In this document: one piece after another, positions 46,842 through 49,589 of the stretch
Numbering within the stretch: position 1 is the first letter of the stretch
Layout: each line of letters begins with the position of its first letter
NCBI RefSeq assembly: GCF_002804245.1
Contig: NZ_CP024968.1
Location: forward strand, 736,408 to 800,407
DNA: 64,000 nucleotides
From: Mesoplasma coleopterae
GTDB lineage: Bacteria > Bacillota_I > Bacilli_A > Mycoplasmatales > Mycoplasmataceae
Reading direction: 5' to 3'
The notes under the pieces: model-generated
What the model was told of the DNA's origin: nothing
The model's database searches: none
Seen by the model: only the letters and a program-made list of their open reading frames with translations
Translations under genes and position numbers: made by a program

Positions 46842-48221
46842 TTATTCTTTACCTGATTCTGGCTGAGTTTCTAAATTGTCAATAACTGTTTTGGCATAAT
46901 CAGCAACTGGTTCAACAGCAATAATTGTTCCTGAAGAAGGTATTACTCCATTTATATATTTAGAAAATAATAATTTTGATGCTTCTGTTAGCGCTTGTGG
47001 AGTAAAGTATTCTTTAATTTTATTTGCTAATGAATCGTCTAATAGATTGGCACCACCTGAAGACATTGTTCCATTTACTCAAACATCCATTCCTGTTCAG
47101 GATTCTTTCGCTTTAATGTCAATGTCCTCAAAAGTTGATGTACCATCTTCTTTTTTAACTTCTTTTGTCAATTGAATTTTATCTGAGTATTTTAATCCTA
47201 CTTTTTCTAAAATATCCGGGTATTCTTTATTATCCATTCATTCTGGTGTATGAGCTAATGAAACAATTGTTGAATTTTTTAAATCCTTTTCAGCTGATGT
47301 TATGAATCTATTTTCAGCATCTTTACCATATGATTCTGCTTGGTCTGTATCAACACCTATAACTTTTCAAGAATTGTCATAACTGATTGCGTCTGAGGTT
47401 TGAGAACCAGCAACTGGCATTAAAACATTTGGTTTGACAGATTTAGATGTATCTTTCAAATTATCTAGTACTAATTTTGATTGTCCAATTAAAAAACTAT
47501 TTGAAAATCACGTTGTGTCATCTTTAGATTTGGGTCATCCATTTTGAGCTTTTCTAACAGTTACTTTTGTTGCTATATCTTTGTCAATATTAAAATTTTC
47601 TAAAAATTGATCATTTGTTTTTAATTGATTGAAAACATCTATTGAAGCCAAGTAACCGACTATAAAGTTGTCAACTGATGCAGGGTTAGATACTCCTCCA
47701 AATGCTCCTAAAGATAACGTATTATTAGTATAGTTACCATTATTTAGAGAATAGATAATTGATGCCATTCCTGCATAAAACCCTGAAACATCTCCTCTAA
47801 AAACAACTCCAATTTCATTATTAGCAGCGCTGTTTGAATCTAAAATTATTGTTGAACCTGAATTTTCCATTACTTTTGCAGCCTGGTGGTCACCCTCTCC
47901 TGGCATAGCATGGTGAAAACCTGGAAGTAATAAAGTTTTTGCATTATTACTCTTAGCTGTTTTGTAAGCTCTTTTCATAGTTTTTGGTGCAGTTGAATCA
48001 GGTTGAATATAACCAATTTTTAGATCCTTGCCCAAAATTTCTTTAACAAACTCTGTTCCAGCTTCATATGCTGATTGATTAAACGATTTATCATCAATCT
48101 TACCTGCATCAGTTACTAAATATATTTCACCAAAATGTTTCTCAGTTCCGCAAGAAACAACGGTTGTTAAACTTGTACTTATTATTGTTGTGCTTAACAG
48201 TGATAACAATAGTTTTTTCAT
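46842..48221 (-). CDS. BMP-family nucleoside-binding lipoprotein
   Basis: 459 aa surface lipoprotein. The signal MKKLLLSLLSTTIISTSL ends in a lipobox TTVVSC with the lipidated Cys at residue 24. The mature part has the Bmp/Med/PnrA fold motifs: LVTDAGKIDDKSFNQSAYEA and DSNSAANNEIGVVFRGDVSG. It captures purine nucleosides for the importer. Several TGA Trp codons fall in its second half. AAGGAG precedes the ATG. It is the first gene after the riboswitch. Confidence 0.93.
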
Positions 48222-48271: not shown

Positions 48272-48277
48272 CCCACG

Positions 48278-48338
48278 CTTATAGTCTGAGGATAGGTCCA
48301 AAGGCAGGTCGACAACCCATTATGTTGTCATGTATAAG
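48278..48338 (-). ncRNA. Purine riboswitch, guanine-class (Mesoplasma variant)
   Basis: 61-nt aptamer on the minus strand. P1 pairs CUUAUA (48333-48338) with UAUAAG (48278-48283). P2 is GACAAC/GUUGUC with loop AUAAUGG; P3 is short with loop around CCUA. J3/1 contains GACUAU, the C that pairs with guanine ligands (U in adenine riboswitches). J2/3 (GACCUGCC) differs from the standard guanine form and resembles, but is not identical to, the 2'-deoxyguanosine riboswitch of Mesoplasma florum as I recall it. It precedes a terminator and the nucleoside uptake operon. Confidence 0.88.
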
Positions 48339-48362
48339 TTTTTCTATTCAATTGTTTAAATT

Positions 48363-48404: not shown

Positions 48405-48420
48405 AACACCTTTTGGTGTT
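48405..48420 (-). terminator. Intrinsic terminator of the HU-fusion gene
   Basis: AACACC-AAAA-GGTGTT followed by TTTTTTTT on the minus strand, 8 bp after the stop codon. Confidence 0.82.
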
Positions 48421-48427
48421 AAAATTA

Positions 48428-49525
48428 TTATTTTTTAATTTCTTTTTTAACTTTTGTTAATCCTGTTCATTTACCCTTTGACATATTCTCTTTCAAGTGT
48501 TTATTAGCCTTAAATTTAACTGTATTTGAAGCCGGAATGTCGATAACAGCACCTGTTGATGGGTTTTTACCTTTTTTAGCTTCTTTATGAACTTTTGTAA
48601 GTTTTCCAAAATTTGAGATAACAATTTCTTCATTTTTTAAAATTGCGTCAGCCATAACTTCGAAAGCACTATTAACAACTTCTTTAACTGATTTTTTACT
48701 AAATTCAGGATGAGTTTTTTCTAATTTAGTTAAAATATCTTTTTTAGAAACCTGGTTATAACGTTTTTTAATTACATACTTTGATTCAGTTTTTGAAGGA
48801 ATAACTACTGGAGCTACTTTTTCTTTAATAACCTTAACTTCTTCAACTTTAGGTTCAGCTACTTTTTTTGAAGATACTGGTTTTTTAGTTGTTTCTTTTT
48901 TAGGTGTTGTTTTTGTTTTAGCAACTTTAACTTCTTCAACTTTAGGTTCAGCTACTTTTTTAACAGCAGGTTTTTTAACTTTCTTTTTAGCAGGTTTTTT
49001 AACAATAACTTCTTCTTCTAATTTTTCTTCTAATTTAATTGCTTCTTGTTTGATTTCTTCTTTTGAAATTTCTTTAACTTCTTCAATAGCTGTTGTAGAT
49101 CCTTTTTCAGAAAGAATTTTGTTAATTTTGTTTTCTCTAACAAAGCTCATAATTATTGAAATAACTAAGAAAATTATTCCTACAATTGCAATTCAATTAA
49201 TTAATAAGTCTCAGAAAATTGGCAATAAGAATGTGATATATCCTTCACTTCCAAATTTTGATGCTAATTTAAACTGAGCTAATGATTTAAATCCCATTGG
49301 TCCTGAAATAAAATGACTTAATCCTTCATTTCCTGTAAATCATGCTGCATCGATGTATTTTGTTTCAACAAGACCTGATTCAGTGATTGTTTTAAATCAA
49401 TCTGATGTTCCATTTGTTGCTTGGTTTAAAAGTTTAAACGCGATTATTAAAACTATAAATAAAACTAAAACAAATATTAAACCAATTGATCTCGTATGTT
49501 TTTTATTTTTCATTTCAATTGACAT
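48428..49525 (-). CDS. Membrane-anchored HU/IHF-like DNA-binding protein
   Basis: 365 aa with an unusual layout. Two hydrophobic helices (about residues 13-33 and 98-127) enclose a 60-residue loop. A long charged linker (about 130-245) is rich in Lys/Pro/Ala/Glu, with KKVAEPKVEEVKV repeated twice, reminiscent of histone H1-like tails. The C-terminal 100 or so residues are an HU domain: VSKKDILTKLEKTHPEFSKK, FEVMADAILKNEEIVISNFG and the DNA-binding arm KKGKNPSTGAVIDIPASNTV. The frame is continuous, with several TGA Trp in the membrane part. AGGAGG precedes the ATG at 49525. It may tether the chromosome to the membrane. Confidence 0.85.
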
Positions 49526-49589
49526 ATTTATGCCTCCTTCTTTTTTATATTAATTATAAACAAATATTTGACTAAGTGAACTTTTAGTG

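Follow-up and report, generated by a model that had tools for sequence, protein, structure and literature searches.

A predicted membrane-anchored HU protein family in Mesoplasma and related groups, a likely chromosome tether

Introduction

HU is usually pictured as a freely diffusing protein that bends DNA, and it binds DNA without sequence preference. The locus described here raises the question of what an HU domain would do at the end of a protein that appears to sit in the membrane. It lies in the window, the whole 64,000-nucleotide stretch that we analysed, which lies at the very end of the 800,407-bp chromosome of Mesoplasma coleopterae (G000:C1:736408-800407). An earlier note on this DNA had described an HU domain fused to membrane helices, while public records name the product simply as an HU family protein. 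We ask whether the frame encodes one protein, which way it would lie in the membrane, where it is found and what role would suit it. Our reading as a whole, which we hold to be fairly probable, is that two predicted N-terminal transmembrane helices and a C-terminal HU domain likely make this protein a tether that holds the chromosome at the inner side of the membrane. Genomes are grouped below into g1, the genus-level group of the window genome (seven genomes searched), and related groups, among them g3 (one genome, G153) and g11 (four genomes).

Results

One gene and one product

The gene, its signals and its upstream neighbour are as follows.

48428..49525, minus strand: gene for the predicted membrane-anchored HU protein (365 aa, NCBI table 4)
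49533..49538, minus strand: ribosome-binding site AGGAGG, 7 nt 5' of the ATG, read from the sequence
49553..49580, minus strand: promoter-like site TTCACT-16-TATAAT 5' of the ATG, 10 of 12 matches, suggestive
48405..48420, minus strand: terminator-like intrinsic hairpin 3' of the stop codon
49590..51485, minus strand: mnmG (gidA), conserved upstream neighbour (TIGR00136, E 1.9e-249)

Read under table 4, the frame starts with the ATG at 49525 and stays open as far as the stop at 48428, with TGA taken as Trp at five places. The earlier note had a single frame running from a membrane N-terminus through a linker to HU, and one open reading frame of 365 codons bears this out; to that description we add the strand, which is minus. 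The ribosome-binding site AGGAGG precedes the start in all seven g1 orthologues, and AGGAG does so in G153. Given this site, the promoter-like site 5' and the terminator-like hairpin 3', the gene has the look of a unit of its own; across the region promoter-like sites are no commoner than in shuffles (7 vs 6.8), and terminator-like hairpins number 2 vs 0.3 expected.

A separate HU product from an internal start, which the earlier note had named as an objection, was considered and rejected, as start codons of every kind are absent from the window gene from residue 126 up to the HU domain. Among the eight g1 and g3 genes, the sole codon before HU with a ribosome-site-like AGGA is GTG233 of G161; start codons ahead of HU are present in G158 and G162, without such an AGGA. 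An assembly artefact is likewise rejected, given intact orthologues in 7/7 g1 genomes and an independent record, P0002. This best database match, an HU family DNA-binding protein of Mesoplasma coleopterae, is listed at 100% identity and differs from the window protein by one residue in our alignment (A1). At least 16 database relatives were found at E up to 0.001 among 7,993 candidates scored; 15 of the relatives listed are named Mesoplasma, and one other has 37% identity. The records include P0008 from Mesoplasma florum L1, which carries the gene, P0036 from Mesoplasma seiffertii and P0037 from M. syrphidae. Absence of the fusion from close relatives had been named as a ground for doubt; the opposite was found, with the fusion in every one of the seven g1 genomes. 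A phage origin was also rejected: 19 phage records match, at below 60% identity and none covering 80% of the query, and the eight of these matches listed involve the HU part and its edge only.

Two predicted helices with both ends inside

The N-terminal part of the protein divides into three features.

49430..49486, minus strand: predicted transmembrane helix 1, residues 14-32 (mean hydropathy over 19 residues 3.16; AF2 helix)
49208..49429, minus strand: predicted outside loop, residues 33-106, with GPxGFKS (charge bias; conserved G75)
49151..49207, minus strand: predicted transmembrane helix 2, residues 107-125 (mean hydropathy over 19 residues 2.88; AF2 helix)

The two transmembrane helices are predicted on hydropathy together with a modest AF2 model. 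Both hydropathy peaks together were matched by 0 of 20,000 shuffles of residues 1-140, and the top peak alone by 39 of 20,000. The earlier note had counted a lack of predicted helices against the fusion; two are predicted. No 19-residue segment reaches 1.6 in any of the 33 short HU proteins of the fetched loci. The AF2 model, built from 17 sequences, is poor for the protein as a whole (mean pLDDT 53); it places one helix at residues 11-38 (block pLDDT 82 and 86 over residues 11-30) and another at residues 79-142 (block pLDDT 76-87 over residues 101-130). Helix 2 contains N110 and adjoins the invariant D106. Across 19 aligned anchor modules K31, N34, G75, D106 and N110 (numbering of the window protein) are invariant; in the loop, W62 and F63 are invariant in 17 rows and GPxGFKS is conserved; the loop is 31-45 residues long in ten of 26 fusions.

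Topology was read from the Lys+Arg density of the flanks before helix 1 and after helix 2 vs the edges of the loop in the 26 fusions found (see below). The charge bias points to N-in/C-in in 25/26, narrowly so in L071 and L074 (0.13 vs 0.10), with L017 as the one fusion that lacks it. By this positive-inside bias the window protein would be an integral two-helix membrane protein with both ends inside, as the earlier note had it, in each case as a prediction only.

Linker, HU domain and tail

The remainder of the protein comprises a linker with an internal repeat, the HU domain and a short tail.

48752..49138, minus strand: Lys/Glu-rich linker, residues 130-258 (composition; low pLDDT; fast evolution, indels)
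48923..48958, minus strand: internal repeat copy 1, residues 190-201
48830..48865, minus strand: internal repeat copy 2, residues 221-232
48482..48748, minus strand: HU domain, residues 260-348 (PF00216, E 8.7e-24)
48527..48574, minus strand: DNA-binding arm, residues 318-333, with NPSTG (alignment with the genome's free HU)
48431..48478, minus strand: C-terminal tail KGKWTGLTKVKKEIKK, past the PF00216 match

The linker holds 35 Lys and 22 Glu among 129 residues, and AF2 pLDDT stays below 50 across residues 142-257. The internal repeat reported earlier is present as two copies of the 12-residue KVAEPKVEEVKV, identical at 35 of 36 bases. The HU domain scores 84 bits against a PF00216 cut-off of 22.4 and covers profile positions 2-89 of 90; against solved HU-type proteins, the best match of profile A1 is at 7.8e-21. 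Since the AF2 model is weak in the beta region of HU (pLDDT about 50), the assignment of the HU fold rests on sequence. The DNA-binding arm, said in the earlier note to be retained, is intact on alignment with the free HU (GKNPSTG, with the NP tip kept). W353, T354 and G355 of the KWTG tail are invariant in 17/17 rows, and the tail recurs in several paralogues.

A family of anchored HU proteins

A PF00216 search over 60 genomes of the GTDB family, with fetched loci re-read under table 4, found HU in 59/60. Among the HU proteins of the loci fetched by then, 35 distinct ones exceed 110 aa and 33 are short. Twenty-six of the 35 have two predicted helices, one has a single helix and eight have none; these eight include four in g10, L080 in g12 and L075 in g11, and the anchor is not universal among long HU proteins. 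The two-helix fusion is present in 12/60 family genomes (7/7 of g1, 1/1 of g3 and 4/4 of g11), and mnmG-linked orthologues are intact in 7/7 g1 genomes and 1/1 of g3. For groups g7-g9 the search gave no HU frame longer than 130 aa; frames in it were cut at TGA, and the secure results are those from fetched loci re-read under table 4.

Order-wide, profile A1 matches in 190/320 genomes, mostly via the HU part, and rows spanning anchor and HU occur in g1 and g3 only. A search with the anchor alone (A2) listed 15/320 genomes, of which the 12 accepted are those with two-helix fusions; G164 and G169 were dropped as open frames of 41 aa, and G200 for a match at E 6e-4 confined to model positions 6-52.

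Anchored HU forms a family, which the earlier note had missed along with the second head described below. The M. coleopterae genome has three predicted membrane-anchored HU proteins, namely the window gene, a 277-aa protein near 511 kb and a 379-aa protein near 544 kb, and one separate free HU.

Several relatives depart from this pattern. Divergent anchored-HU paralogues (L005, L082, L083, L085-L088) have lost the NP of the arm and carry the DGS domain (see below) between the helices and HU. Copies interrupted by stops or frame changes occur in G204 (L104/L163) and G161 (L116). In G162 (L090:1062-2333, plus strand) an inverse fusion puts the HU-like domain first (PF00216 E 3.5e-6, most of the arm missing), followed by one predicted helix after a Lys/Arg run and then about 270 residues predicted outside, which again places the HU-like domain on the predicted inner side. 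The g10 genomes G200 and G201 (L078, L079) each encode two long HU proteins of 228-246 aa without predicted helices, whose N-terminal extensions look different. Near 786-787 kb of G161, an HU fragment adjoins a weak ParA-like fragment (L157 and L089), perhaps a plasmid or mobile-element remnant.

Position on the chromosome and neighbours

In 9/12 genomes (7/7 of g1, G153 as 1/1 of g3, and G203 as 1/4 of g11) mnmG stands immediately before the fusion, on the same strand; TIGR00136 identifies mnmG in the window, G153, G202 and G203. The other g11 genomes, G202, G204 and G205, have purB ahead of the fusion instead (named in G202 and G204, recognised by likeness in G205); in G202, purB, purA and a further gene separate the fusion from mnmG. 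Because this mnmG/purB synteny is shared across g1, g3 and g11, the gene was probably already at this place in their common ancestor.

The earlier note had put the origin about 15 kb away; the 5' end of the gene is 14.5 kb from the chromosome end, and a DnaA C-terminal domain lies at 1054-1257 past the junction. In six g1 genomes, the corresponding distance to the end of a record starting with dnaA is 13.5-20.1 kb, and in G160 and G153 the fusion is 17-18 kb from the DnaA match, making it origin-proximal in 8/8 g1 and g3 genomes. The two paralogues of the M. coleopterae genome sit far from the origin. The closeness may merely be inherited synteny with mnmG, with no function needed.

Next downstream of the gene is a PnrA-like lipoprotein gene (PF02608) at 46842-48221, followed by genes that we take to be its ABC transporter; 5' of the PnrA-like gene, a 2'-dG-I riboswitch aptamer (RF01510, 71.2 bits) lies at 48277-48339 on the minus strand. 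A nucleoside-uptake partner was considered and rejected, as the downstream neighbours are not conserved: G153 and the four g11 genomes have no PnrA or transporter neighbours downstream of the fusion, and G157 keeps transporter homologues with no PnrA-like ORF seen.

Selection and ancestry

Omega was estimated by the Nei-Gojobori method for six g1 pairs, taking residues 1-135 as the anchor. Within g1 it is 0.09-0.29 in the anchor, 0.11-0.26 in HU and 0.37-3.22 in the linker, and vs G153 it is 0.48, 0.38 and 0.88, respectively; several dS values are near or above 1, which makes those omegas rough. The loop lies at 0.11-0.39 within g1, and helix 1 alone at 0.27-0.58, with one pair without changes, and is less constrained. 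The value of 1.38 for helix 2 vs G153 (24% identity) probably reflects local misalignment. The anchor and the HU domain are under purifying selection while the linker drifts.

In a tree of HU domains from 66 sequences, computed without L090 and, for its gaps, L081, all 26 fusions fall together on one side of a split (UFBoot 90). With them lie two helix-less relatives, L075 and L014; L014 is an HU part cut off from a broken fusion of G204. On the other side are the 33 free HU together with five further long HU proteins. This is consistent with one old fusion origin of the anchored HU.

A second head on the same anchor

The anchor also carries a 70-residue domain that we call DGS after its invariant motif (DGS...LRDxTKKEL; alignment A5). 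Proteins of 267 aa encoded at 509 kb and 655 kb of the M. coleopterae genome have it in place of HU. These two loci (L065 and L066, on G000:C1) hold near-identical anchor-DGS copies with 97% protein identity, probably a recent duplication, each near a gene for a protein beginning MKKLLQLLAIVSLTSS. DGS lies beside HU in several fusions (L005, L013, L069 and others), and in L080 of g12 it follows HU in a protein without helices.

In the same clade, DGS ends the ribosomal proteins bS6, bL20, bS16 and uS5 and a PTS EIICB protein. Loci L134, L136-L139, L141-L143 and L149-L152 (g3, g10, g11 and g12) show C-terminal DGS domains joined by low-complexity linkers to these hosts and to two-helix membrane proteins; the N-terminal domains of DGS-tailed proteins are Pfam-confirmed in six and assigned by likeness in the rest. 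The g12 two-helix DGS proteins look like the anchor, with homology that is not significant (hhalign probability 3%). A search with A5 listed 19/320 genomes, of which 17 were kept, in g1, g3, g10, g11 and g12; G176 and G310 were dropped as partial matches with E above 1e-4.

The structure model of DGS is of fair confidence (pLDDT 83-91). Foldseek returned 0 matches for it at E 0.001; the DGS profile against PDB sequences gave rows at E 0.0056 or worse, which look like chance helical matches, and VIA-align barely covered the DGS part and gave no fold match.

Discussion

An old, conserved family of HU proteins with predicted membrane anchors is, on sequence evidence, real. Prediction gives good support to a membrane location of the window protein with its HU domain in the cytoplasm: the charge bias, the kept arm, the conserved architecture and position, and the purifying selection all point the same way. 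The fusion of HU to membrane helices described in the earlier note holds up.

Tethering of the chromosome to the membrane by anchored HU is likely, and is the best account that we can infer from these sequences. Both ends of the protein would lie inside, with a 74-residue loop bearing the conserved GPxG motif outside, and the Lys/Glu-rich linker of variable length would serve as a flexible leash. The HU head would pair with another HU domain, either of its own kind or free HU, and the pair would bend and hold DNA without sequence preference, such that many anchored copies could keep the edge of the nucleoid at the membrane. The family is specific to this lineage, with one anchor module carrying HU, the second small domain, or both.

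Might membrane attachment also help to position or separate chromosomes where ParB is not found? Such a role is speculative, and the origin proximity (8/8) and the ParB result (0/7) point to it weakly. The ParB HTH domain PF17762 was found in 0/7 genus genomes with a profile that matched 9/14 control genomes, and a ParA-type PF13614 domain above cut-off in 0/7, with a weak match in one; such profile tests miss divergent forms. Since HU is non-specific, anchored HU alone could not mark the origin. Syn3A is also without ParABS and, in the accessible part of a modelling study, is modelled as segregating mainly by SMC (PMC13142093), so that a lack of ParB does not imply a tether.

The alternatives differ in how well they survive. 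The tether could be one arm of a wider scaffold joining membrane, nucleoid and ribosomes, its counterpart being the DGS anchors. The sharing of one anchor by HU, DGS or both speaks for it, as do the DGS ends seen within this clade on bS6, bL20, bS16, uS5 and a PTS transporter. However, the window protein itself has no DGS domain, and DGS matched no known fold; this scaffold is doubtful. Just as tentative is its extension to a docking system, in which swappable HU and DGS heads on a two-helix anchor would fasten nucleoid and ribosomes and support segregation without ParABS; if true, this would be a form of chromosome organization and segregation without ParABS in wall-less bacteria.

We consider it improbable that the protein is a membrane-bound sensor or regulator whose outside loop senses a signal, changes DNA binding by HU and so alters expression. 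The loop is conserved (GPxGFKS, with W62 and F63 invariant) and under purifying selection within g1. However, HU shows no sequence preference in its binding, the gene seems to stand as a unit of its own with mnmG as its sole conserved neighbour, and the shrinkage of the loop in ten of the 26 fusions suggests that it is mainly a connector. Far less probable is a surface DNA catcher for nutrition, with HU outside and environmental DNA feeding the adjoining nucleoside uptake genes. The PnrA-like lipoprotein under the 2'-dG riboswitch and the presumed transporter genes would suit it, but the charge bias puts HU inside, a terminator-like hairpin separates the anchored-HU and PnrA-like genes, and such neighbours are absent downstream in G153 and the four g11 genomes, with no PnrA-like ORF in G157. 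Least probable of all is a neutral or decaying fusion, an HU captured by a membrane gene that does nothing useful: some copies are broken or truncated (L104 in G204, L116 in G161) and one paralogue group has lost the arm proline, but in each of the eight g1 and g3 genomes the copy next to mnmG is unbroken, and omega lies well under 1 in both anchor and HU.

The likely tether bears on how near-minimal bacteria attach and separate their chromosomes, now modelled for Syn3A (PMC8339304). The accessible parts of that modelling (PMC8339304, PMC10445541) give a single HU of low count in Syn3A and 9,500 HU copies in M. florum, a count given there without saying which HU protein is meant, and name membrane attachment as a possible factor. 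Since M. florum, a species described as having no pathogenic potential (PMC7745072), carries the gene (P0008), the tether question is directly testable there by removing one or a few genes. One genome with three predicted anchored HU proteins and one free HU also contrasts with the statement, in the accessible part of an HU survey (PMC5683647), that Mollicutes species have only one HU polypeptide; that part does note long N-termini in some Mollicutes HU, and the word transmembrane is absent from the survey. Among the literature matches listed (titles and abstract openings, with few subscription journals), none describes a membrane-anchored HU domain from Mollicutes.

With free HU of the HU/IHF family (PF00216), the window protein shares an HU domain that scores over the Pfam cut-off and has the NPxTG arm. 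It differs from the canonical soluble HU of about 90 residues in being a 365-aa predicted membrane protein with two helices, a linker and a WTG tail, and for none of the HU and IHF equivalogs listed from NCBIfam does its score reach the cut-off. Noc, which is related to ParB, binds DNA site-specifically and touches the membrane with an amphipathic helix. Such membrane-binding nucleoid proteins likewise join DNA binding and membrane contact in one protein, whereas the window protein does so with HU and two predicted membrane-spanning helices, and its domain search gave no row for a ParB-type HTH domain. Burroughs et al. in 2017 reportedly described HU-CCDC81 proteins of Bacteroidetes that are joined to SPOR domains, membrane-bound and proposed to act in chromosome partitioning. 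A membrane-anchored domain of the HU superfamily would be common to both, but the window HU is of another clade: its domain search gave no SPOR row and no row for PF18174 or PF18175 at E up to 1, with sub-cut-off rows for these in some paralogues. Finally, the actinobacterial HupB type, as given in the accessible part of the HU survey (PMC5683647), resembles the window protein in joining an HU core to a Lys-rich extension. The window protein differs in that its extension stands ahead of HU, contains much Glu besides Lys, and connects to two predicted membrane helices.
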